DNA from: Variovorax paradoxus
Lineage (GTDB): Bacteria > Pseudomonadota > Gammaproteobacteria > Burkholderiales > Burkholderiaceae_C
DNA length: 64,000 nt
Reading direction: 5' to 3'
NCBI RefSeq assembly: GCF_030811855.1
Contig: NZ_JAUSRN010000016.1
Coordinates: 1 to 64,000, forward strand
Positions 1 through 11,784 of this stretch are shown here, piece after piece (positions within the stretch are counted from its first letter, which is position 1; each line of letters begins with the position of its first letter). The notes under the pieces are model-generated. The model did not search any database. It was not told the DNA's origin and saw nothing but the letters and a program-made list of their open reading frames with translations. The translations under genes and the position numbers were made by a program.

Positions 1-1755
1 ACCCATCCGACCCTGCGCACGCACAACTTCGTGAACGACGCGAACGGCAACGCCCTGTACGCCTACTACGCCTACGAGGGCACGCCCCAGGTGCACGCCA
101 ACGGCCAGCGCCAGCTGGTGGTCAACGGCGAGGTGCTGGGGCGCTACGGCCTGCTCGCGGACACCCGCTTCGAGGGCACGGCGCTGGCGCAGAACGGCCC
201 GCTCTTCAGCGCCCAGAGCGACTTCAGCTTCGGCTACCAGCCCATCGACGGCAACTACCCCGCGGGCAGCCCCGGCACCTATGCGGTGGCCACGGGCGAC
301 ACCCTGCAGAGCATCGCCAAGGGGGCGTACGGGGATGCGAGCCTGTGGTACCTGATCGCGGATGCGAACGGGCTGAGCAGCGATGCGGACCTGCGCACCG
401 GGCAGGTGCTCAGGATTCCGACCAGGGTGGGGAGTGCGGACAACGCGAGCACCTTCAGGCCGTACGACCCGTCAAAGATTGCCAGCGACTCGCCGACCAT
501 GATGGCGACGCCGCAGGCCGAGGATGGCGGCTGCGGGGCCGTCGGCCAGATCATCATGGTGGTGGTCGCCGTGGTGGCTGCAGTCTTTACCGCAGGAGCG
601 GCGCTCGCTGCCATGGGCGCCACACTGGCGACCGCCGGGACGGGCACGCTCATCGCGGCGGGGGCCATTGGCGGTGCCGTTGGCTCCATCGCGAGCCAGG
701 CGGTCGGAATAGCGATCGGCGCGCAGGACAGCTTCAGTTGGAAGGGCGTGGCGCTGGGGGCCATCGGCGGCGGTGTCACGGCCGGCCTGGGCGGGGCCGG
801 GTTGCTCCCAGATACGGGCAATGTCTTCCTCGATGGGGCGATTCGTGGTGCCGTGAGCAGCACCTTGACGCAAGGTATCGCAGTGGTCACCGGCTTGCAG
901 GACAAATTCAGCTGGAAGTCGGTCGCTGCATCCGCAGTCGGTGCGGGTGTGGGCGCGGCGGCAGGCCCGGCCATCGGCAAGGCGTTCGGCGAAGCGTTCG
1001 GCAACAACGCAGGCAGCGCCTTCGCGGCGCGACTTGCGACGGGCCTGGTCGCGGGCACGGCGGCTGCGGTGATGCGCGGGGGCAAGGTGGCGATTCAGCA
1101 GGTCGCGACTGATGCCTTTGGCAATGCGTTGGGGGAATCCATCGCAGCGGCGAATGGGCAGCAGGCGCAAGGCGTCGGGCCGCGGATTACCGCAACGGGA
1201 TGGACATCGAGAGCGACAACGCCGCGCTGCAGCGGCAGACGCAGCCTTACTACGACCAAATCGTGGGGGCATTCGGTCAGCCCGGTGACGGCAACCGGTA
1301 CGCTGGCGTGCAGATCGCAGCGGGTTCGGGCTACAGCGGCATGGGTTCGGGCAGCGGCCGTGATCAGAACATCGATCGCATGCTCGATTTGGCTAATAGA
1401 CCCGAGTCGGGTGGAACGCGGAGCAGCATGGGTGCCGATGGCGTGCCGCGTGTGGGCTTCGGTGTGTTTGGGCCGGCCGAGAGCATTCGCAGCGACGGGC
1501 GCGGCTTCATCGATGAAGTCAGGAGTGCGACGGAAGGGTCGATCAATCAGGGGAGCGCGATCGGCACGCCATTGCCACCGTCACCGTACAAGTGGGTATC
1601 CAACGAGATGGTCGACGGAAGAGTTGTCCCTGGGCATTGGACAGACGGCGTCGACACAGGAGACGATTCGGCGCGCCTCCTGGCGCGGTCCAAGGACAGT
1701 CCGGCGATGCAACAGTGGGCGAAGAACTACTACAGCGATGGTGCCAACTCGTTGA
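1..1755 (+). CDS. Large LysM-containing (RHS-like) polymorphic toxin, 5'-truncated, upstream half of a frameshifted gene
   Basis: The gene enters from the window edge: the frame is open from base 1 and the true start lies upstream. Around residues 85-125 of the visible part is a LysM domain (T-G-D-T-L-Q-S-I-A, then L-W-Y-L-I-A-D-A-N-G-L and G-Q-V-L-R-I-P), which in this family binds peptidoglycan or glycan. It is followed by a long Gly/Ala-rich hydrophobic stretch (about 170-375) that could span or insert into a membrane, typical of secreted polymorphic toxins just before the C-terminal toxin tip. Sense coding ends near base 1184. Beyond that this frame is Arg/Thr-rich nonsense to a stop at 1755, while the sensible protein continues one base back in the frame of the next entry, beginning D-Y-R-N-G at 1185. 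Adding one G near 1182 would restore continuity. The family assignment (RHS/YD-type or other large effector) is inferred because the N-terminus is missing. Confidence 0.6.
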   Translation, partial: THPTLRTHNFVNDANGNALYAYYAYEGTPQVHANGQRQLVVNGEVLGRYGLLADTRFEGTALAQNGPLFSAQSDFSFGYQPIDGNYPAGSPGTYAVATGDTLQSIAKGAYGDASLWYLIADANGLSSDADLRTGQVLRIPTRVGSADNASTFRPYDPSKIASDSPTMMATPQAEDGGCGAVGQIIMVVVAVVAAVFTAGAALAAMGATLATAGTGTLIAAGAIGGAVGSIASQAVGIAIGAQDSFSWKGVALGAIGGGVTAGLGGAGLLPDTGNVFLDGAIRGAVSSTLTQGIAVVTGLQDKFSWKSVAASAVGAGVGAAAGPAIGKAFGEAFGNNAGSAFAARLATGLVAGTAAAVMRGGKVAIQQVATDAFGNALGESIAAANGQQAQGVGPRITATGWTSRATTPRCSGRRSLTTTKSWGHSVSPVTATGTLACRSQRVRATAAWVRAAAVIRTSIACSIWLIDPSRVERGAAWVPMACRVWASVCLGRPRAFAATGAASSMKSGVRRKGRSIRGARSARHCHRHRTSGYPTRWSTEELSLGIGQTASTQETIRRASWRGPRTVRRCNSGRRTTTAMVPTR

Positions 1756-2561
1756 ATGCGGCCGAGCGCGCGGATGGCTTTGCGGACAGCACGAACCGCT
1801 TTATGCCTCCAGCATCGACACAGACGCTGGGTGATTTGTATGCGGCAAATGCACGGATGGTTGGAGCTGCAACAAGCAAAGAAGGCTGGGTGGCCGCTGC
1901 TCGCGTGGTGTTCTCGAACCCGACCGATGGCGAGAGGAGATCGGCCCTCGCCACGGTCGGGTCTGCGGCCATGATTGGACTAGACGTGGCGCCTGTCGGT
2001 ATCGTCGGTAAGGAAGTCAGTATGGCGATGGTCGGAGGGGTCCGGTCAGCCTGGAATGGGGCCAAGGCCGAGTTGAGGCTGGCTGCTGCGGCCCAGGATG
2101 CGGTTGAAATGCGCGTAGCGGGTGACATCGGCGTGCCTGCGACCCGGTCTGCTAATCCACTGAGCACGGTGCTGGAGTTCGATGCGCATGGGAATGAGAT
2201 CATGTATCGGTCGATGTCGAGAGAGGACTACAGGTATCTGCGAGACTTTGGTGAACTGCGTCCAACAACCGAAACCTCCATCTCGCCCAACTTGGCCTAT
2301 TCTTCAAAATACACCAACAACAACAGCGTGACCGTCCGCTTCGCCACCACGCCGGGCACCTCGGCCGCGTTGCAAGAAATAGGCATTGCAGCCAACCCAC
2401 CGGCAGCGAAGGCTTTGAGCTTGGCCGAGCGCAACGACAGCTGGATGCAAACCAACACGCGCTTCAAGGTCGAAGGCGGGCAGATGACCACGCAATTGGG
2501 CCAAGGCCCTGGCATCACGACTTTCAATCGTGGCATCGTTGACTTTGAGCTCGTTCGCTAA
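1200..2561 (+). CDS. Downstream half of the toxin gene: linker and putative ART-like C-terminal toxin domain
   Basis: This is the continuation of the preceding protein after a one-base shift. The first ATG in this frame is at 1200, but coding sense starts at 1185 (D-Y-R-N-G-M-D-I). The first 300 or so residues are a linker with repeated Gly/Ser/Asn. The last 130 residues form a compact domain: M-Y-R-S-M-S early, T-S-I-S-P-N in the middle, then V-R-F with P-G-T-S-A-A-L, and finally F-K-V-E-G-G-Q and V-D-F-E-L-V-R at the end. The Arg, Ser-x-Ser and late Glu order fits an ADP-ribosyltransferase fold, and I recall similar domains at the tips of contact-dependent and RHS toxins. The activity is inference, not shown. 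A small gene starts 11 bases downstream, as expected for an immunity gene. With no start codon and ribosome site of its own at 1200, it is probably not expressed separately. Confidence 0.6.
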   Translation: MDIESDNAALQRQTQPYYDQIVGAFGQPGDGNRYAGVQIAAGSGYSGMGSGSGRDQNIDRMLDLANRPESGGTRSSMGADGVPRVGFGVFGPAESIRSDGRGFIDEVRSATEGSINQGSAIGTPLPPSPYKWVSNEMVDGRVVPGHWTDGVDTGDDSARLLARSKDSPAMQQWAKNYYSDGANSLNAAERADGFADSTNRFMPPASTQTLGDLYAANARMVGAATSKEGWVAAARVVFSNPTDGERRSALATVGSAAMIGLDVAPVGIVGKEVSMAMVGGVRSAWNGAKAELRLAAAAQDAVEMRVAGDIGVPATRSANPLSTVLEFDAHGNEIMYRSMSREDYRYLRDFGELRPTTETSISPNLAYSSKYTNNNSVTVRFATTPGTSAALQEIGIAANPPAAKALSLAERNDSWMQTNTRFKVEGGQMTTQLGQGPGITTFNRGIVDFELVR

Positions 2562-2572
2562 AGGGAAGACCA

Positions 2573-3055
2573 ATGTTTTTACAGTTCGATCAATCCGGCG
2601 TTCCCATGAAGCGCGTGTACCTGCTCTCAGAGGAACTGAAGGCAGACCCCGGTCGGATCGCCTTGGCGCAAGCCTTGACCCTGAATGCTGCCAAGCCACG
2701 CATGGGCCTCAAGGGCACGCTGGGACTCTTTGGATCGCCCGAATGGTGGGCCAATATAGAGCAACGAAGAATGCCCTTGCGGTTTGTGCAAGGCATCATT
2801 CGCAGCACGTATTTCGCTGGGCAGGATGAGCCGGGCGACCACAACTCCTTTGAGTTGCTGCTGGAGGATGGTGCAACCTACGATGAAAGTATTTACGCCA
2901 ACGACAAGGCCAGTCGTGCACTGTTTCGCGTCGGTCATCGGGTCGAAATCGTCTACGCGCTCGATGAGTCAAAGCGCCAGCCCGCCCAAGATGGCGGCGT
3001 GAATTATTCAGACATCGTGCTCGAAATGGCCGTCTCCCTGGAGCCCGTCAAGTAG
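2573..3055 (+). CDS. Hypothetical protein, candidate immunity protein for the upstream toxin domain
   Basis: A 160-residue soluble protein with no signal peptide or membrane segment and no family I recognise. It is mixed alpha/beta by composition, with an acidic middle part (F-E-L-L-L-E-D-G around residue 90) and an acidic character overall. It begins 11 bases after the toxin stop codon, preceded by AAGGGAAGACCA, and runs in the same direction. That position is where the cognate immunity gene of a polymorphic toxin sits, so immunity is the most economical guess. Nothing in the protein itself proves it. Its 3' end overlaps the convergent DUF4291 gene by eight bases (3048-3055). Confidence 0.6.
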   Translation: MFLQFDQSGVPMKRVYLLSEELKADPGRIALAQALTLNAAKPRMGLKGTLGLFGSPEWWANIEQRRMPLRFVQGIIRSTYFAGQDEPGDHNSFELLLEDGATYDESIYANDKASRALFRVGHRVEIVYALDESKRQPAQDGGVNYSDIVLEMAVSLEPVK

Positions 3056-3632
3056 CCTGCTGACCGGGGTAGGCCTGCTCCACCGGTAGCTTGTTGGCAG
3101 CTTCTTGGAGCTGCCCTTGCTGCACCAGCGCGCGCACTTCATGGGCCGTCGCCGTCACTTCCGTGATCCTGCGCGTCCACTGGTTCACGTAGAGCCGCAC
3201 AGCCTCCTTGCTCAGGCCAATCTGAATGGCCCGATGCTCCAATGGCTGCAAATGCAAATCGCGCTCCGGATCCCATTGCACCCGCACCGGGCGGCGCTGC
3301 TTGAGCTCGGCGTAGGCATCCATCGACATGCCTGCTGGCGAGTGGCTCGGACAGCTATGGGCCAAAGCCCACTCGAAGCCCTCGCGCGTGATGTCGATCG
3401 CCAGAATGCGCTTCTGGCCTTCGTCCTTCAACCCCCAGCCGGCGCGGTACATCATCCAGAGGAAAGAAGGCTTGATCCACGTCATGCGCTCCAGCTTGAA
3501 CGGTGGCGAGATGAAGCGGCCATGCGCCAGAGCAGAGTCGGCAATCGCATCGCTGTACGCCTGATAGACCCGAATGGTGTCGGCGTCGTACATGGCGCGG
3601 ATTTGGTTGTGGGGAATTGCGTCGGTCTTCAT
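3048..3632 (-). CDS. DUF4291 family protein
   Basis: A 194-residue protein carrying the DUF4291 signature near its start: I-R-A-M-Y-D-A-D-T-I-R-V-Y-Q-A-Y, then P-P-F-K-L-E-R-M-T-W-I-K-P-S-F-L-W-M-M-Y-R and I-T-R-E-G-F-E-W-A-L. Length and motif order match a full-length member. The family is widespread in bacteria and fungi; I know of no firmly established function. It is cytoplasmic by sequence. It converges on the candidate immunity gene and is followed at 126 bases by another minus-strand gene (ORF6N), so the block may be an accessory cassette rather than a functional unit with the toxin. Confidence 0.88.
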   Translation of the reverse strand: MKTDAIPHNQIRAMYDADTIRVYQAYSDAIADSALAHGRFISPPFKLERMTWIKPSFLWMMYRAGWGLKDEGQKRILAIDITREGFEWALAHSCPSHSPAGMSMDAYAELKQRRPVRVQWDPERDLHLQPLEHRAIQIGLSKEAVRLYVNQWTRRITEVTATAHEVRALVQQGQLQEAANKLPVEQAYPGQQAT

Positions 3633-3758: not shown

Positions 3759-4364
3759 TCAGCCCGTGCGCGCCTTGCCCTTGGTCGCCTTCTTCTCCTC
3801 GGGCGTCACGAACCCGATCGGCCGCTTGGGCGACTCCGGTGGCATCGTCAGTTCCCTGACCGCCTCGAAGAGCTGCCTCAGCTGATTGCGCGTGTTGCGG
3901 CTGAAGGTGTCGTGGCTCAATTCCAGCCGCTCCGTCTTCTCCTCGATCTCGGCCAGCCGCTTGGCCGGGTCCTCATGCAGGCTCGCCGCCTGGCGCAGCC
4001 GCACGAACGCGCGCACCACGTAGATGCCCATCTCGACGGCCTGGCTTGAGGCCAGGATATTGGCCAGCGCCACCGCCCCGAACTCCGTGAAAGCAAACGG
4101 CAGCGATCTGGAAAACTTCAGCTTCGAGAGGTGGTCACAGTTTGTGACCACCTCGGCCTTCTCGGCCGCGTCCAGCTGGAACATGAAGTCCGACGGAAAG
4201 CGCCCCGCGTTGCGCTTGACGGCCTGGTTCAGCGCCTTGGTCGGCACGCCATAGAGCTCGGCCAGATCGGCGTCGATCATCACCTTCAGGCCGCGCAGCA
4301 GCTGGATGCGCCCCTCGATGCGCGGCAGCAGCGCGCCGGCTGTTCTTGTCGTTGTTGTCGCCAT
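3759..4364 (-). CDS. ORF6N domain-containing DNA-binding protein
   Basis: The protein has 201 residues from the ATG at 4364, which is preceded by AGGGAACGC; an in-frame extension further upstream has no coding character. The N-terminal 90 residues carry the ORF6N signature: V-M-I-D-A-D-L-A-E-L-Y-G, T-K-A-L-N-Q-A-V-K-R-N, R-F-P-S-D-F-M-F-Q-L, then A-F-T-E-F-G-A-V-A-L-A-N-I-L. ORF6N is a DNA-binding domain related to KilA-N and Bro proteins of phages and large DNA viruses. In bacteria it is usually carried on prophages or accessory islands. The C-terminal half (about 115-180) is a charged, probably coiled helix. A small ORF ends 34 bases upstream in the same direction and may be co-transcribed. 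Confidence 0.87.
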   Translation of the reverse strand: MATTTTRTAGALLPRIEGRIQLLRGLKVMIDADLAELYGVPTKALNQAVKRNAGRFPSDFMFQLDAAEKAEVVTNCDHLSKLKFSRSLPFAFTEFGAVALANILASSQAVEMGIYVVRAFVRLRQAASLHEDPAKRLAEIEEKTERLELSHDTFSRNTRNQLRQLFEAVRELTMPPESPKRPIGFVTPEEKKATKGKARTG

Positions 4365-4398
4365 GCGTTCCCTGGTCTTGTCTTCCGGTCTTTGTTCT

Positions 4399-4572
4399 TC
4401 AGTGGCTGGCCTGCGCCAGAACCGTCTCCAGCATCTGCGAGACGAACTGCTGCTTGGTCTTTGGCAGTTGCTCCACCGCATCGATTTGCTGGTGCAGCCG
4501 CGACACCGGCCCGCGCCTGGTGGTACCGCGCCGCGTGGTGCCGGCAGCGGCCGGCTGCGTGTTCTGGCCCAT
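4399..4572 (-). CDS. Small 57-residue ORF, possible C-terminal remnant of an XRE-type regulator
   Basis: It reads ATG (4572) to TGA (4399) and ends 34 bases before the ORF6N gene. Residues 1-25 are basic and low-complexity (two T-T-R-R-G blocks). Residues 26-55 (R-L-H-Q-Q-I-D-A-V-E-Q-L-P-K-T-K-Q-Q-F-V then S-Q-M-L-E-T-V-L-A-Q-A) resemble the helical tail that follows the HTH domain in many small XRE-family regulators. The HTH itself is absent and a stop codon lies six codons upstream, so this is either a decayed regulator or a short partner of ORF6N. Codon choice is GC-rich and consistent with coding. I have seen this tail pattern before, but the assignment is tentative. Confidence 0.35.
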   Translation of the reverse strand: MGQNTQPAAAGTTRRGTTRRGPVSRLHQQIDAVEQLPKTKQQFVSQMLETVLAQASH

Positions 4573-4858
4573 CAGTTTAGCCCGGCCCTAAGCGTTTCAC
4601 GCGAAGTGCGGATGCATTGACGGAGACCCTGAGCACCCAGCTGGTGGCCGCGCCGGAGCAAGACAGCCAGCGCTACTTCCAGATTGGCGGAGTCGCGCTT
4701 ATGTCCAGACTCGACTGTCAAGAAATAAATTCCTTGATGCTTCACAGCTAGACACCCGTCATCTCGCCCGAGCAAGTTACTCGAAAAGCCGCCCTTGTAC
4801 TTGCCCCTTGGCATACTCTGGCGAACACTCCGTCTCTCATTCATCCAAGGTAGGCACG

Positions 4859-5635
4859 ATGCCGAACGCAAGAAAAATCGTCAATCTGGGCATCGCCACT
4901 CCGGCATACAACAACACGGTGCTAATGAGCTATGCGAACACGCTGTTCGGCATTCAGGCGGCGGCAATGAACGGGGGGATCGGGTGCCGGCTGCTGTGGT
5001 CGTCGAGTTCGAGTGTGATCGCGGTCGCGCGGAATTTGCTTGTCGACGAATTCTTGCGTGATGATCGCCTGTCTCATCTGTTGTTCATCGACGCGGATAT
5101 GGCCTTTCCGCCGGAGGATTTGATGCGCATGTTGGCAGCCAGTGAGTCGCTGGAGCCTCACGACGTTGTTGCGGCCATCTGTCCCCGCAAGCGCTTGAAC
5201 TGGGAGCGTGTGATGGCGGCAGCACGCATGCAGCCTCAACTGGCAAGTGAGGGTCTGGCCACGCTGGCCGGGTCGTTCGACGGCATGTTCAAGCCGCTAT
5301 CGGGACGGATGGAGGATGTGTTCGAAGATCGTCCTGTGGAAGTCGAGGCGATCGGGACGGGCGTCATGCTGATAAGTCGCTCCGCTCTAGAACACCTGAT
5401 GGCGCACGGGGTTCAGCGCGTCAGGATGGGATCGCAGCAAATCGAACTGAATGTGTTTTTTGAAGAGACCGTGGTCAACGGCTTCCATACCTCGGAAGAC
5501 ATCTCTTTTTGCCACAAGGTGCGCCGCGCGGGTGGGCGAGTGTGGGGCGTTCCATGGTTCCGCGTGACGCACGGCGGCAATTACGACCACATCGGGGATA
5601 TCGGTGCCATCTCGCGAGCCCATATGGCGCTGTAA
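4859..5635 (+). CDS. GT-A fold glycosyltransferase (GT2-like)
   Basis: The protein has 258 residues. The ATG at 4859 is chosen over the one at 4808 because AAGGTAGG lies at the right distance and the protein then begins directly with the beta strand V-N-L-G-I-A-T-P-A-Y-N. The nucleotide-sugar/metal motif D-A-D is at residues 78-80 (L-L-F-I-D-A-D-M-A-F-P-P). Later come G-T-G-V-M-L-I-S-R and, near the end, the acceptor/base region T-S-E-D-I-S-F-C and H-G-G-N-Y-D-H-I-G. It has no membrane segment, so it is probably cytoplasmic. It converges on the GT41 gene (61-base gap with a short CACGGC-GA-GCCGTG hairpin at 5668-5681), so the two stay together without sharing a transcript. Sugar and acceptor are unknown; a role in decorating the neighbouring adhesin is inference. 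Confidence 0.78.
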   Translation: MPNARKIVNLGIATPAYNNTVLMSYANTLFGIQAAAMNGGIGCRLLWSSSSSVIAVARNLLVDEFLRDDRLSHLLFIDADMAFPPEDLMRMLAASESLEPHDVVAAICPRKRLNWERVMAAARMQPQLASEGLATLAGSFDGMFKPLSGRMEDVFEDRPVEVEAIGTGVMLISRSALEHLMAHGVQRVRMGSQQIELNVFFEETVVNGFHTSEDISFCHKVRRAGGRVWGVPWFRVTHGGNYDHIGDIGAISRAHMAL

Positions 5636-5695
5636 CGGCGATGTCTTGCGGGCGGGAGGGCAGCACTCACGGCGAGCCGTGCAACTGCCGCGCGA

Positions 5696-7918
5696 TCATG
5701 CAGGGACGACGAGCGGGATCGGTGGCTCACGTCGCATGTGGCGCTCCATCATCATCTGATACGCGGCTTCGATACCAGATCGGTACCGCTCTATATCGAA
5801 CAATGGTGCACTCGTCCTTGCCTGGTGTAGATGCTCCCTTTGGCCCTGGAGCTCCATAGGATCTGCGGCCAACTCGATGGCCCTCGTCGCATACGCTTCG
5901 AGAGTGGGCATCACCATCTCCGGCAACCCGACGGCATGGAGCAGGCTGGCGGCAACGCGGCTGGCAAACGTTGTTCCGAGGCAAGTGAGCAAGGGAAGGC
6001 CTGCCCAGAGAGCGTCGCTCCCCGTGGTATGCGCATTGCAAGGAAACGTGTCCAGGAACAAATCAGCCAGCGCATGCCGGCTGAGGTGATCAGGCAGGGG
6101 TTGCCGTGGCGCAAAAACAAGGCGCTCAGGCGAAATGCCGAGATTCAACGCTTCCTGCCGCAGGCGAGGTTCTGTCCCGCTGTCCGGCCTGTACAGCCAT
6201 AGAACGCTGTCGGGGACCGCATGGAGAATTCGCATCCAGACCGCAAAGACGGCTGGGGTGATCTTGTAGGTGTTGTTGAAGCAACAGAAGACGAATCCGT
6301 TTGCAGGAAGGCCGGCTGCATTTCTGGCAGTTGCCTTGTCAACCTGCAGAGGCGCGATCGAACGCAAGCCCGAGGCGTTTGGTTGATAGCAGTGAGGCAG
6401 GGTGACGATTTGTTCGGCATAGAAACGCGCGTGTTCCGGCGGCGTCACAATCGCATCGCCCACGATGTAGTCGATACATGTGGTCCCCATGCTTGCGGGA
6501 TAGCCCAGGTAGTTGACCTGCACGGGTGCGGCACGTTCGGTAAATATGCGTGGGCGGCAGTTTTGTGTGTAGCCTTTCAAGTCGATTGCTAGGTCGATTT
6601 CCAGCTTGCGGGACAAGGCGCAAACAGCGCTATCCGACTCCTGGGAGACGTCGAAAAAATGATCTATCGACTGTGTCAGACGCTTGGTCATGTCATCTGG
6701 AGCCGACGGTCCGAAGGAAAAAAGAAACACCTCGAACTTCGAGTTGTCATGCTTTTCAAGAAGCTCAGCGATCAGCAACGTGGTCGCGTGCGCATGAAAG
6801 TCCGCAGAAAAATACCCCAGGCGAATCCTTTCGTGGGGACTGCGTTCGGGCAGCGGCAAAGGCTCGGCATCTGGGAAAAAATGCGCCATGAACGTCGCTC
6901 CCGCCTGTCGGATCACTTCAAGGTCATCGCATCCGACCGCCATGACAAACGGGGATGCGGTTGGTTCTCCCCGCATGACGGCTTCACACAGACGGGCCTT
7001 GGCGCTGTCGAAGTCGCGCCAGCGCACCAACTGCGCCATCGCAAGGAAATGGTCTCCCGCGGCGTAGGCTGGCACCGGATCGGAGTCGAGGGCCTTTTCA
7101 AGATGAAGGAGCGCTTCGTCATGCCGGTTCCCTACGACGAGCGAGCGCGCGGCAAGGAAGTGGTCTTCCCCGCAACTGCGCGGCGATAGCGCGCCGAGAG
7201 CGATCACGCGTTCAAACGCTTGCACGGCCTTGGGCGAATTTCCCATCCCAAGAAGCACATGGCCGTGCGCTCTCCAGGCGTCCACCGACGAAGCGCGGCG
7301 AGCGATTGCCTTGTTGCTTTCGGCCAGGGCCTCCTGATGCAAATGCAAGCCGCATAGCGCGTAAATGCGTCTGCACTGGGCATCGGGGTCATCGCTCGAC
7401 CTTGCCAGCACGGCATCAAAATCGACCAGCGCTTCGGCATGCCGTCCTTTCTCGAACAGCGCCACCCCTCGGTTGTAATGCGTGTCGATGGAGGTCGGGC
7501 AGATTGCCAATGCGCGGTCATAGCACTGCATTGCCCGCTCGAAGTGGCCCTGCCGATTGAGAGCATTCGCGAGATTTGTAAGAACGTCATGCGCGCCGGG
7601 GTCCAGTAGCAGCGCCACTTGATAAGCCTCTATCGCTTCTTCATGGCGCTTCAATCCGTGCAAGGCATTGCCGCGGGTTGCATGCGTATTTGAAATGCGC
7701 GGTTCGATGGCAATCGCGAGATCGGCGTACCGCAACGCGTCGTCGAGATGGCTTCGCTGAATGCCCAAGATGCCAAGCATTCCAAGGCTCTGGTGATGGC
7801 GCGGTGCGCGGCGCAGGATTTCCTGATAGCCGGCTTCCGCTTGATCCAGCAGGCCCTCCTGGTGAATGCGCAACATCGCGTCGAATTCACGATCGATCTC
7901 TTTGGTCGCACTCTCCAT
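5696..7918 (-). CDS. TPR-repeat GT41 glycosyltransferase (O-GlcNAc-transferase/SPINDLY-like)
   Basis: A 740-residue cytoplasmic enzyme. Residues about 10-320 are tetratricopeptide repeats (for example A-L-R-Y-A-D-L-A-I-A-I-E-P, A-M-Q-C-Y-D-R-A-L-A-I-C-P). Residues about 355-725 are a GT41 catalytic region: I-R-L-G-Y-F-S-A-D-F with H-A-H-A-T-T-L-L, Y-L-G-Y-P-A-S-M-G, C-F-N-N-T-Y-K-I-T-P (the Lys that contacts UDP in OGT), and D-L-F-L-D-T-F-P-C-N then H-T-T-G-S-D-A-L-W-A-G-L-P with A-S-R-V-A-A-S-L-L. These match human OGT block by block, so the active site looks intact. The family moves GlcNAc, glucose or other sugars from UDP or GDP donors to Ser/Thr or Asn of proteins. It is divergent from a trimeric autotransporter adhesin 347 bases away, suggesting that this adhesin is its substrate. 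Confidence 0.92.
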   Translation of the reverse strand: MESATKEIDREFDAMLRIHQEGLLDQAEAGYQEILRRAPRHHQSLGMLGILGIQRSHLDDALRYADLAIAIEPRISNTHATRGNALHGLKRHEEAIEAYQVALLLDPGAHDVLTNLANALNRQGHFERAMQCYDRALAICPTSIDTHYNRGVALFEKGRHAEALVDFDAVLARSSDDPDAQCRRIYALCGLHLHQEALAESNKAIARRASSVDAWRAHGHVLLGMGNSPKAVQAFERVIALGALSPRSCGEDHFLAARSLVVGNRHDEALLHLEKALDSDPVPAYAAGDHFLAMAQLVRWRDFDSAKARLCEAVMRGEPTASPFVMAVGCDDLEVIRQAGATFMAHFFPDAEPLPLPERSPHERIRLGYFSADFHAHATTLLIAELLEKHDNSKFEVFLFSFGPSAPDDMTKRLTQSIDHFFDVSQESDSAVCALSRKLEIDLAIDLKGYTQNCRPRIFTERAAPVQVNYLGYPASMGTTCIDYIVGDAIVTPPEHARFYAEQIVTLPHCYQPNASGLRSIAPLQVDKATARNAAGLPANGFVFCCFNNTYKITPAVFAVWMRILHAVPDSVLWLYRPDSGTEPRLRQEALNLGISPERLVFAPRQPLPDHLSRHALADLFLDTFPCNAHTTGSDALWAGLPLLTCLGTTFASRVAASLLHAVGLPEMVMPTLEAYATRAIELAADPMELQGQREHLHQARTSAPLFDIERYRSGIEAAYQMMMERHMRREPPIPLVVPA

Positions 7919-8265
7919 CGAATCTCCCTGAATGGTTGCACGCGCCTAGAACGGCGCTCACCCGATTCTCCCTCCCCTTTTGCGCCACTGAGACGGTGCA
8001 CTTTTCCACAAATCGGGCCCTTCAATTGTCAAATATCGTCGCGCCCGCTCTGAGGCAGAACGCCTCGCTCTATATTGCCGACGCAAACGTTCGACCGGTT
8101 CAATTGCATACATTGATGACGCCCTTATCGAGGGCCCGTCCCTGCACGCAAATTGTTCAGATCAAAGTCTGTGACGCATTCAGGACTCCTTCGCACGAAG
8201 GTCCTTGGATATCCTACAAAAAACATCAACGGGGCTCCGATGCAGGTTCCCCAAGGGAGAAAGTT
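7919..8265. other. Divergent intergenic region between the GT41 and adhesin genes
   Basis: This 347-base region must hold the start signals of both divergent genes. It is AT-richer than its surroundings from about 8020 to 8230. A small imperfect hairpin sits at 8183-8204 (CCTTCG-CA-CGAAGG core, flanked by GGA/TCC). On the minus strand a TTGACA-like hexamer occurs at 8027-8032, but no good -10 follows, so I do not call promoters. No ORF with coding character is present. Confidence 0.5.
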
Positions 8266-9585
8266 TTGAATTTATCGCTTACCAAAATCGCGGCCGTGAT
8301 CGCCTTTACGTGCGCGCTGCCCGGTGCTTGGGCCCAAGGTGCAGGCGCCGTCGTGGTCGACGGCGCTGGAACGGCGGTCTATGGTTCGACCGGTACGACA
8401 TTGGACCCTTCGACCGGTAGCCCGGTGTTCGGCGCCATCGCCAGTTCGGCCACGGAGTTCTCAGCACTCACGCTCACGCCTACGGCGGCGCAGACCCTCG
8501 TGACCGACGGCACGAACGCCTCGGCCGTGACGCAAACGCCGACGAGTTTCGACGCGACGGCGGCGGGTTCCGGCGTTTTTCTGGGGCCCGTCGGCGCTAG
8601 CCTGTTGCGCACCAACGCCACTTCGACCGTGAATTCCGGCTATGTTGCAGTCGACAACGCCGCTGCGGGTGGCACATTCGAAACCGGCACTGGCCGTCAA
8701 TACAACGGAACCCGCACCTTGTTTGGCCCCGGCTTGGACACGACGCAGACGGGTTCTTTCGATGCGAGCAGCAATCTCGCTACGGGGTTGCTGACCGATG
8801 GGGTCGCCGGCACCAACACGCTACTGGGAAGCACCTCGACAAATGGCATCGTCAATGCAGGAAATATCGCGACGACGACGCTGAACGTCAGCGGTGCCAC
8901 TACCACCAATGGAATCGCGAACACGGGCCACATCGCTACGACGTCCTTGTCCACAACTGGCAATGCGACCGTCGGCGGCACGCTTGCGGTGTCCGGCGCC
9001 ACAACCACCAATGGCATCGTGAACACAGGCAACATTGCAACGACGTCGTTGTCCACAACTGGGAATGCGAACGTGGGCGGCACACTCGCTGTGTCTGGCG
9101 CCACGACGACCAACGGCATTGACAACAGCAACCAGAAAATCACTGGCGTTGCGCCTGGCACCGTCAGCAGTTCGAGCACGGACGCGGTCAATGGCAGCCA
9201 GCTTTACCAAGTGAGTTCGGCCCAAGCGACGGCGAACGCCAATCAGGCCGCGATCAACAACAACCAGGCGTTGGTCAATGCCAACCAGGCCAACATCAAC
9301 GCAGCGCAGTCGCTGACGAATCAGCAGATGCAGGCCCAAACCGCAAGCAACCGCAAGATCTCCAGTGGCGGCATCGCATCGGCCACTGCTACCGCATCAA
9401 TGCCCGCTCTCCAGCGTGAGCAAAAGTTCGGAATAGGAGTAGGCGTGGGCAATTACGACGGCCAATCGGCCCTCGCCATCGGTGTGGCTGCGCGTGTCTC
9501 CGAACAGCTCCAGTTGAAATTTTCTGTGGGTACGAGCGGCGGCGGCAAGACAACTGTTGGCGCTGGCGGTATGTACGCCTGGTAG
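8266..9585 (+). CDS. YadA-type trimeric autotransporter adhesin
   Basis: The protein has 439 residues. TTG at 8266 is chosen as start because AAGGGAG lies six bases upstream and the product then begins with a clean signal peptide (K-I-A-A-V-I-A-F-T-C-A-L-P-G-A-W-A, cleavage before Q24). Residues 25-190 form a Gly/Thr/Ser-rich passenger with no known domain. Residues 209-290 are a 34-residue tandem repeat (S-G-A-T-T-T-N-G-I start). Residues 284-315 are the YadA stalk/neck motif (K-I-T-G-V-A-P-G-T-V then S-T-D-A-V-N-G-S-Q-L-Y). Residues 318-365 are an Asn/Gln/Ala heptad coil. The last 60 residues are the four-stranded membrane anchor, ending in aromatic M-Y-A-W. Six N-x-S/T sequons (N84, N117, N147, N207, N233, N309) lie in the exported part. 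It should form an outer-membrane trimer for attachment. Confidence 0.92.
   Translation: MNLSLTKIAAVIAFTCALPGAWAQGAGAVVVDGAGTAVYGSTGTTLDPSTGSPVFGAIASSATEFSALTLTPTAAQTLVTDGTNASAVTQTPTSFDATAAGSGVFLGPVGASLLRTNATSTVNSGYVAVDNAAAGGTFETGTGRQYNGTRTLFGPGLDTTQTGSFDASSNLATGLLTDGVAGTNTLLGSTSTNGIVNAGNIATTTLNVSGATTTNGIANTGHIATTSLSTTGNATVGGTLAVSGATTTNGIVNTGNIATTSLSTTGNANVGGTLAVSGATTTNGIDNSNQKITGVAPGTVSSSSTDAVNGSQLYQVSSAQATANANQAAINNNQALVNANQANINAAQSLTNQQMQAQTASNRKISSGGIASATATASMPALQREQKFGIGVGVGNYDGQSALAIGVAARVSEQLQLKFSVGTSGGGKTTVGAGGMYAW
8890..9093 (+). repeat. Two tandem 102-bp repeats inside the adhesin gene
   Basis: Two consecutive 34-codon units (residues 209-242 and 243-276) are nearly identical, each reading S-G-A-T-T-T-N-G-I ... 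T-T-S-L-S-T-T-G-N-A ... G-G-T-L-A-V. A degenerate partial copy precedes them (residues 190-208) and a 14-residue partial copy follows. Such in-frame repeats allow stalk length to vary by recombination or slippage. Confidence 0.85.
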
Positions 9586-9599
9586 CGGGTCAAGGGATT

Positions 9600-10140
9600 T
9601 CATGATCGGCTTCCTCGCGATTCTCGGTCACCCCTCGCTGCCCTCAACCGCAGCGCATTCGTGATCACAGACGCCGAACTCAGGCTCATCGCCAGCGCCG
9701 CGATCATCGGGGACAGCAGCCATCCCGCGAATGGGTACAGCACGCCGGCGGCCAGGGGGACGCCGAGCGCGTTGTAGACGAAAGCGACGCCCAGGTTCTG
9801 CTTCATGTTGGCGATAGTCTGTTCGGAGACGATGCGCGCCTGCGCGATGCCGCGCAGGTCGCCCTTGACGAGTGTGACCTGCGCGCTGTTCATGGCCACG
9901 TCGGTGCCGGTGCCCATCGCGACGCCCACGTCAGCCTTGGCGAGCGCGGGCGCATCGTTGATGCCGTCGCCGGCCATGGCGACGATGCGTCCCTCCCGCT
10001 GCAGCTTGTCCACCAGCGCGAGCTTGTCGGCGGGCTTGACTTCGCCGTGCACCTCGTCGATGCCCAGCCGGGCGGCGACGGCGCGGGCCGTGGTCAGCCC
10101 GTCGCCGGTGGCCATGATCACGCGCATGCCCGAACCATTC
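9600..10140 (-). pseudogene. copA: Remnant of a copper-translocating P-type ATPase (C-terminal part only)
   Basis: About 176 codons remain of a gene normally near 750-800 codons. The sequence begins [16 protein letters not shown] and contains the hinge motif [14 protein letters not shown] and the last two membrane helices, ending [10 protein letters not shown]. The metal-binding domain, the CPC helix and the phosphorylation motif DKTGT are all missing, so it cannot pump copper. Upstream, a ribosome site (TTGGAGAGCTCGA followed by ATG) and a MerR-type promoter survive, which suggests one large internal deletion running from just after the start codon to the hinge. That ATG reads out of frame and hits TGA after six codons; ATG at 10127 could still express the tail. 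It lies directly after the adhesin stop (14-base gap), convergent. Confidence 0.88.
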
Positions 10141-10194
10141 GAGCTCTCCAACGAGAAAACGGGAAGATGAGGCGCTCCGTGCAGAGCGCAGCTC

Positions 10195-10226
10195 CAGTTT
10201 CCAGGTTGACGCCGTGTCAAGGTCAA
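10195..10226 (-). promoter_or_regulatory. CueR/MerR-type metal-responsive promoter of the deleted copA
   Basis: On the minus strand the -35 hexamer TTGACC (10226-10221) and a -10-like GAAACT (10201-10196) are separated by 19 bases, the overlong spacer typical of MerR-family promoters. The spacer contains the dyad TTGAC-ACGGC-GTCAA (10205-10219). This is the arrangement CueR acts on before copA genes. No MerR-family regulator is encoded nearby, so control would be from elsewhere. Confidence 0.75.
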
Positions 10227-10257
10227 GCCCGGCAAGGCTTCTGGCCGGCGGGCCTTC

Positions 10258-11784
10258 TCAGACGGCGGAGGTGGTGACGGCCGAGGCGCCGCTGCTGCCG
10301 GTGCCCGGCGGCGTCTTGACGATGGAAGTGAGCGCGGGTTCGGCCATGCGCAAAGTCGCGAGGTCGGGCCGTGGGCGGCGCAACTGCGCGTCAGATGCGA
10401 ATGCCATCTCCATCGCATGCGCCGCGCCCAGCACCTGATGGTCGGTCCGGAACCCGCCCACTATCTGCAGCCCGAACGGCATGCCTGCATGGTCGACGCC
10501 GCAGGGCAATGAGAGCGCGGGATGCGTCGTCAGCGTCACGACATACGTCAGCGCGAGCCAGCGGTAGTAGTTCTCCTGCTTCTCGCCATTGATGGTGTCC
10601 GCGTAGAGCTGCGTCCACGGGAACGGCGACACCGGCGTGGTGGGCGAAAGAATCAGGTCGTAGTCGGCAAAGGTTGACTGAAAGCGCTTGATGAGCCGGG
10701 TCTGCTCGGCCTGCGCCCAGGCGCTGTCGAGCAGGCTCATCTGCGCGCCCATCTCGTAGTTGGCGCGGGAGTTGGGCCCGAGGCTGGCGGGGTCCTTTTC
10801 GTAGGCCGCATGCATGCCGGCCACGAAGGCTTCGGCGCGCAGCACGTCGAAGCAGCGGTGCGCTTCGCCCAGGTCGAGCGTCACTTCGTCGCAAGACTTG
10901 AACAAGTGCCGCATGGCGCCGACCTTGCGGCGCATCGTGGCGCGGATGTTGTCGTCCACAGCGCAGACACCGAAGTCTTCGGTCCACGCCACGCGCAGCT
11001 TGCTCAGGTCGAGGTCGGCGGGCTTCAAGAAAGACAGCGGGTCCAGCGGATAGCTCAGCGGATCGCCGGCGTGCATGCCCGCGGAGGCCGCCATCTGCAG
11101 GCAGGCGTCTTCCACGGTGCGACCCATGGGGCCGACAACGGAGATAGGTGTCCAGCCCAGCAGCTTTCGCACGCTGGGCACGACGCCCGGCGAAGGCCGA
11201 AAGCCGACCACGCCGCATTTGGCAGCCGGAATGCGCAGCGAGCCGCCGGTGTCGGAGCCGGTGCACACGGGCAGCATGTCGCACGCCAGTGCCGCCGCCG
11301 AGCCGCCCGAGGAGCCACCGGCATTCAGGTTGGGGTTGAACGGATTGCCGGTGGCGCCCCACACGTCGTTGCGCGAGTTGGCGCCGGCGCCCATCTCGGG
11401 AACGTTGGTCTTGCCAGCGACGATGGCACCGGCCCTGCGCAGGCGGGCCACCAGTTCGATGTCTTCGCTGGGCACGTGGTCGCGGAAGATCGCGGAGCCC
11501 CAGGTGGTGAGCAGGCCTTCCGTGGGTTCCAGGTCTTTCACGCCGAGCGGGAGACCGTGCAGCAGGCCCAGCGAGTCGCCGCGCATGACGGCCGCCTCGG
11601 CCGTCTTGGCTTCGGTTCGCGCGCGGTCGAAGCAGGTCGCTGTCACGGCATTGACGAAGGGGTTCACCCGCTCGATCTGCGCAATGCAGGCCTCCAGCAG
11701 ATCGACCGGTGAAACTGCCTTGCTGCCGATGAGGCGCCGCAGTTCGACCGCGGATTTTTCGACCAATTCGTTGTGAGTGCTCAT
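10258..11784 (-). CDS. Amidase (amidase signature family)
   Basis: A 508-residue hydrolase of amides to acid plus ammonia or amine. The start at 11784 ([10 protein letters not shown]) is taken in preference to an upstream in-frame codon because the family aligns from here. The Ser-cisSer-Lys triad is visible: K83 (G-V-K-D-L-E-P), the signature [10 protein letters not shown] (cis-Ser S158/S159) and nucleophile S182 in [12 protein letters not shown]. It has no signal peptide, so it is cytoplasmic. It lies downstream of a Bug-type receptor gene on the same strand with a palindromic element between them. Together with the divergent LysR this looks like uptake and hydrolysis of an organic amide or acid. 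Substrate cannot be told from sequence. Confidence 0.9.

Follow-up and report, generated by a model that had tools for sequence, protein, structure and literature searches.

In a 64,000-nucleotide stretch of a Variovorax paradoxus genome (hereafter the window; genome G000, 6.2 Mb over 41 contigs), a glycosyltransferase of family GT41 bearing tetratricopeptide repeats (TPRs) is encoded divergently from a short trimeric autotransporter adhesin (TAA). We propose that the two form a unit in which the cytoplasmic GT41 enzyme glycosylates the neighbouring TAA before its export, probably on Ser/Thr, a reading that we place only slightly above even odds (probability about 0.52). A distant form of the GT41-TAA pairing is conserved in many related species, and this makes the adhesin a likely substrate of the enzyme. 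The sequence analysis shows what the genes encode, that the catalytic motifs are intact, that both GT41 and TAA are under purifying selection, and that TPR-bearing GT41 genes are repeatedly paired with TAA genes. An initial annotation had described a GT-A enzyme, a TPR-GT41 and a YadA-type adhesin at 4859-9585, the latter two divergent, and this gene arrangement is confirmed as follows:

4859..5635, + strand: putative GT-A-fold glycosyltransferase, 258 aa; a phrog_1574 relative with DxD in FIDADMAF at 5090-5098 and an SEDxSFC motif
5696..7918, - strand: TPR-GT41 glycosyltransferase, 740 aa, recognised by Pfam profiles; catalytic GT41 part at ~5777-6841, TPR part at ~7199-7870
7919..8265, no strand: intergenic region of 347 bp between the start codons of the divergent GT41 and TAA genes
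8266..9585, + strand: short trimeric autotransporter (TAA), 439 aa, TTG start, with PF05662 and PF03895
8266..8334, + strand: Sec signal peptide of the TAA, first 23 residues, read by eye in the translation, with cleavage inferred from the AxA rule
8892..9119, + strand: tandem repeat of 102 bp (34 aa), 2.2 copies, within the Thr/Asn/Ser-rich passenger
9136..9267, + strand: YadA_stalk domain (PF05662), residues 291-334, over the cut-off
9403..9582, + strand: YadA_anchor (PF03895), the trimeric membrane anchor, residues 380-439, 57.2 bits (cut-off 22.7)

The window GT41 matches PF13844 with 276 bits (cut-off 25), and its N-terminal TPRs, which exceed the cut-offs of PF00515, PF07719 and other models, align with the TPRs of OGT. 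Its PDB relatives are, nearest first, OGT (7ntf, E 2.5e-106), XcOGT (E 6.6e-76) and SPINDLY (E 6e-63). The roles of the catalytic His and Lys and of the HTTG-D motif are known from work on human OGT, and the window enzyme carries the OGT-type motifs DFHAH, FNNTYK and HTTGSDALW. Against the NGT model NF049992 it reaches 19.4 bits, with a cut-off of 1000. Since OGT and XcOGT are its nearest relatives, the NGT model scores far below its cut-off and the motifs are those of OGT, the enzyme is of the TPR type and not the HMW1C type, and the view of the initial annotation that it is OGT-like holds. The likeness to OGT and to Xanthomonas XcOGT consists of TPRs plus a GT41 domain with aligned catalytic motifs; the difference is that the bacterial gene in the window, OGT-like by sequence only, is paired with a surface adhesin. 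No second PF13844 gene was found in G000. Comparison of G000 with G030 (OV700) gives ratios of nonsynonymous to synonymous substitution rates (dN/dS) of 0.18 (GT41) and 0.12 (TAA). Elsewhere, loci L036, L040, L044, L049, L054, L057 and L058, from Chlorobiaceae, Methylococcales and betaproteobacteria, hold 2-4 consecutive GT41 domains.

The window TAA shows the marks of type Vc secretion, namely a signal peptide (by eye), a stalk and a C-terminal YadA_anchor, all of which it shares with YadA-type TAAs; it differs from others of this type in being short, and neither an ESPR nor a YadA head is seen in it by eye. Translation most likely starts at the TTG at 8266, behind a GGGAG box, and a TTG start is present too in the TAA orthologue of G030. 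A sigma-70-like promoter match was not found in the intergenic region 7919-8265.

The evidence that carries the proposed unit is the recurrence of the gene pair. A PF13844 match occurs in 57, and a YadA_anchor in 91, of the 101 Variovorax genomes. When 71 GT41 places, each gene being counted once even where Pfam marked a second stretch, are set against 153 TAA places, a TAA anchor lies within 12 kb of at least 23 of the 71, a lower bound because 153 TAA places were used while 318 anchor matches were counted. The paired GT41s split into two clades of the GT41 tree, A and B, with strongly supported separation, as judged from a large quick tree of 95 rows, built from tblastn segments stripped of gap and stop letters, and from a careful tree of 53 of these rows, in which clade B was thinned to 8 paired rows and the named outsiders to 8. 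In clade B, GT41 lies directly downstream of a TAA gene on the same strand at 19 of 20 testable Variovorax loci (those of G010 and G029 reach contig ends and are outside the 20), with a gap of 143-185 bp (measured in 17 of the 19). For the 43 Variovorax GT41 places outside the two clades, no listed anchor lies within 12 kb, and a model search found no TAA anchor at the 25 of these loci examined, some of them near contig ends.

Clade A, to which the window belongs, comprises six genomes, and a TAA gene stands beside GT41 in four of them. In G000 and G030 it is the window-type TAA, divergent from GT41; in G011 and G078, whose GT41 has 59% identity, a long ESPR-type TAA lies on the same divergent side, ~1.4 kb away, with a 155-aa gene in between (DUF4019, the domain having been tested in G011). 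A TAA anchor was not found within the 19-20 kb examined in G063 and G003. The chance that at least two of four clade-A lineages would lie <10 kb from a TAA is about 4e-4. Furthermore, all six clade-A enzymes retain DFxxH, FNNTYK and HTTGSDALW; GT41 is intact in all four genomes with an adjoining TAA and split over two or three frames in both genomes without one.

This last pattern bears on the main rival, in which GT41, together with the GT-A enzyme, modifies another protein or glycan and adjoins the adhesin through a recently acquired island. A GC content of 0.59 in the GT-A and GT41 genes, lower than the 0.649 of the window, is in keeping with such an island, as are the anti-repressor-like and Rhs-like genes nearby, the travelling of GT-A and GT41 without a TAA in G063, the presence of related TAAs in genomes that lack GT41, and the GT-A gene itself, which differs between G000 and G030 at 2 of 774 nucleotides while GT41 and TAA differ by 5-7%. 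The recurrence of the GT41-TAA pair in separate clades and the purifying selection on both window genes speak against it, and the intact and split GT41s of clade A, six genomes in all, point away from a chance island. We regard this rival as rather unlikely.

Pairing also extends beyond the genus along the clade-B lineage. Searching 299 genomes of the family with the clade-B protein (E <= 1e-90) gives a GT41 in 66 of them, 65 of these outside Variovorax. YadA_anchor occurs in 3 of these 65, and just upstream of GT41 in the two closest orthologues, those of G280 (50%) and G178 (41%), which come from two other genera. There the two genes are co-directional, the gap is about 100-150 bp, the GT41 starts being uncertain, and both TAA genes run off the end of their contig. 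In the rest of the order, the closest relative of clade B is that of G525 (the 1 of 399 at E <= 1e-115), and the 18 kb examined around it contain no TAA anchor. Among the loci of P0002 relatives in named genomes, the best 79 among the matches listed, a TAA anchor was found only at L033 (OV700), with an anchor model that was built from Variovorax anchors and may miss distant ones.

Which residue would accept the sugar was approached through passenger composition, with X residues dropped before composition and sequon counts. The comparison drew on 30 TAAs among the best-scoring of the 318 anchors, trimmed to the examined stretch and including that of G011; in the sequon count rows L200, L224 and L253 are misread, and the Ser+Thr test omits L200 and keeps L253. 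Clade-B-paired passengers have a median Ser+Thr share of 0.36 (n=19); 29 other Variovorax TAAs reach 0.19 (p 1e-7). The paired passengers also differ from five related unpaired TAAs (0.18-0.31; p 0.007). Because these passengers are orthologues, this richness amounts to one evolutionary event at most.

The initial annotation had drawn attention to N-x-S/T sequons in the window adhesin. Six are indeed present in its exported part, but enrichment is not found: 7 are counted versus 9.7 expected from composition, contrary to the first form of the proposed reading, and Ser/Thr stands at +2 of 18% of Asn, below background. Sequon enrichment was therefore rejected as evidence of N-glycosylation in this adhesin. 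In the Variovorax clade-B TAAs the motif occurs 884 times forward and 936 times reversed, with 594 expected, whereas in the G280 and G178 TAAs (83 Asn together) Ser/Thr is found at +2 in 68% versus 23% at -2. The latter two (L281 1-1073; L282 9446-10183) contain N/T repeats such as NTTTTNLTA, TITNLTA and TTNLTA, in which N-x-T is very dense. With sequons low in the window adhesin and strongly forward in G280 and G178, O-linkage is likelier for the window, where we consider it the better guess from the sequences at hand, and N-linkage is possible for clade B.

These counts also bear on the alternative of N-glycosylation, in which the GT41 would modify N-x-S/T sequons in the manner of HMW1C and NGT. 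The six sequons of the exported part, the forward bias in G280 and G178 with repeats such as TTNLTA, and the TAA modification reported for HMW1C-like enzymes of Kingella and Aggregatibacter (Rempe 2015, cited by PMC5303269) would fit it. The 18% at +2 and the 7 sequons versus 9.7 in the window adhesin, the near equality of forward and reversed motifs in Variovorax clade B, an NGT model score of 19 bits of 1000, and an N-terminus of TPRs and not the AAD that the available text of PMC3983070 gives for HMW1C make it improbable. A related proposal concerns clade B, whose enzymes carry SGATANDVLW in place of the HTTG motif: TPR-bearing, OGT-like GT41s may have been recruited repeatedly as dedicated TAA partners, and in the operon-like clade B, where the HTTG motif is altered and Asn/Thr repeats (TTNLTA, TITNLTA) occur, the enzyme could be an N-glycosyltransferase. 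We hold this to be a long shot; if true, it would be an exception to the division of labour in which Ser/Thr is the target of TPR-type GT41s and Asn that of AAD-type ones.

Returning to the proposed window unit, the Ser/Thr-rich passenger, still unfolded in the cytoplasm, would be bound by the TPR superhelix of GT41, whose OGT-like GT-B domain would add single sugars to Ser/Thr, with UDP-GlcNAc or UDP-hexose as donor, ahead of Sec. The modified chain would then trimerise and be displayed via the YadA-type anchor, and the GT-A enzyme may lengthen the sugar. In this scheme the choice of the TAA as acceptor, O-linkage, the sugar donor and the part played by GT-A are inferences.

Several observations weigh against the unit as proposed. 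The exact window trio occurs in only 2 of 101 Variovorax genomes (G000 and G030). Co-occurrence of GT41 and adhesin in relatives, whose absence the initial annotation had named as a refutation, is a check that its hypothesis survives in altered form: pairing recurs in two GT41 clades (at least 23 of 71 places), but the exact pair is confined to these two genomes. The TAAs of G011 and G078 fall in the other anchor group, the long ESPR type, and that of G078 (L224 4290-10735) is split over two frames near the anchor, with the anchor in the second. With a Ser+Thr share of 0.19, the TAA next to the G011 GT41 of clade A is not rich in these residues; the window adhesin, at 0.29, lies inside the range of its unpaired relatives. 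In clade B, the GT41 of G118 is intact with no TAA beside it. In the anchor tree (47 rows, 86 columns; X residues dropped before aligning), the window anchor stands apart from the long ESPR-type Variovorax TAAs and falls, together with the clade-B-paired TAAs, on one side of a 99/99 branch, but on the same side are five TAAs without an adjoining GT41 (G066, G026, G096, G022 and G001; for two of these the contig is shorter than 9 kb), and GT41 is wholly absent from four of these five genomes; L214 of G116 also lies on this side. Furthermore, in an order sample a TAA occurs in 31 of 330 genomes, G000 included; 14 of the other 30 also have a GT41, and among these 14, which lie outside the family, only G043 has both close. 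A general TAA-GT41 linkage across the order is rejected on this 1 of 14 in the 330-genome sample, and together with the 3 of 65 in the family it makes the pairing a property of particular GT41 clades, not of GT41s generally.

The GT-A gene also counts against the unit in its fullest form, since it follows GT41 and not the adhesin: in G063 a block homologous to window 4808-7900 consists of GT-A and GT41 without a TAA. The 258-aa protein has a GT-A fold by the fold test, and it stays below the cut-offs of the curated families PF00535 (17 bits, cut-off 23.3) and PF03452 (16.4, cut-off 28.8), with no NCBIfam match. Because the GT-A and GT41 genes are convergent, they are not in one operon. With tblastn at E <= 1e-4, no GT-A relative was found at the 19 clade-B pairs of Variovorax or at the G011, G078, G178 and G280 loci, although several of the stretches examined are short. 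GT-A as a third conserved part is rejected for clade B, G011 and G078, and the place that the initial annotation gave it in the adhesin locus is not upheld, the gene tracking GT41 in G063 with no adhesin within 19 kb. The broader idea of a dedicated adhesin glycosylation locus survives in part: the GT41-TAA pairing recurs, but sequon enrichment and GT-A as a steady component fall away.

We give even weight to the possibility that the GT-A gene is unconnected to adhesin glycosylation, being a phage-type glycosyltransferase left by a mobile element, which is compatible with GT41 acting on the TAA. Its sole PHROG match is phrog_1574 (function unassigned in PHROG), 61 phage records hold relatives, and 75 of the 101 Variovorax genomes carry one, mostly distant (25-41% identity except in G000, G030 and G063). 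On the other side, the close orthologue in G063 (87%) is still convergent with GT41, with a second GT-A relative beyond GT41 there. Indeed, in G063 (L222 7333-11346) GT-A relatives flank the split GT41 on both sides, with no TAA. The near-identity of the GT-A gene between G000 and G030 hints, at the nucleotide level, at a recent exchange of that stretch. Plasmid and phage collections gave only distant relatives of P0004 and P0001; ten relatives of P0001 came from viral contigs, and a structure alignment includes five of them.

GT41 enzymes are known to act on two-partner adhesins (HMW1C type) and on cytoplasmic or flagellar proteins (OGT type), and FlmG is assigned to GT41 with TPRs. HMW1C-type GT41s modify two-partner adhesins encoded beside them (PMC3983070), and PMC5303269 cites Rempe 2015 for the modification of TAAs by orphan enzymes of the HMW1C kind. 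What HMW1C/NGT and the window share is a cytoplasmic GT41 with its gene beside that of an exported type V adhesin (PMC3983070, available text). HMW1C/NGT, with HMW1 and EtpA, have an AAD N-terminus, modify Asn in N-x-S/T, and serve two-partner adhesins or are orphan, whereas the window GT41 has TPRs, OGT-type motifs and a TAA partner without sequon excess. FlmG of Caulobacter crescentus, in the available part of PMC7591256, is a cytoplasmic flagellin O-glycosyltransferase with a separate N-terminal substrate-binding part; the likeness is that of a cytoplasmic O-glycosyltransferase of an exported surface protein, the activity of the window enzyme being putative, and the difference is that FlmG has flagellins as acceptor and pseudaminic acid as sugar. 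In ngt-agt of A. pleuropneumoniae, a GT41 and a second glycosyltransferase together build a hexose polymer (PMC5303269, available text), and the window likewise has a GT41 with a second glycosyltransferase gene; agt, however, is an alpha-6-glucosyltransferase and ngt is HMW1C-like, whereas the second window gene encodes a putative GT-A-fold enzyme. Burkholderia TAA genes are described in PMC3404963 and PMC7142374, with the word 'glycosyltransferase' in neither main text. A TPR-type GT41 gene-paired with a TAA is named in no title or abstract opening that surfaced for GT41 or glycosylation with TAAs, few subscription papers being covered. The conserved TPR-GT41/TAA pairs, from 19 Variovorax species plus two other genera, are natural candidate enzyme-acceptor pairs, and they open the selection of an exported acceptor by TPRs, and the choice of O- versus N-bond, to direct testing in harmless bacteria of soil and plant roots.

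Upstream of the GT-A gene, the window holds an anti-repressor-like gene with an ORF6N domain (3759-4481), adjoining a DUF4291 gene (3048-3632). Farther upstream, at 31-3055, an Rhs-like end with a LysM-like stretch (by eye) is followed by open reading frames of 453 aa (1200-2561) and 160 aa (2573-3055), neither of which has a Pfam or NCBIfam match; they may be a toxin-like tip and its partner. On the other side, adjoining the adhesin at 9600-10418, lies what is probably a gene remnant, the C-terminal end of a copper P-type ATPase that matches positions 663-831 of an 838-position profile.

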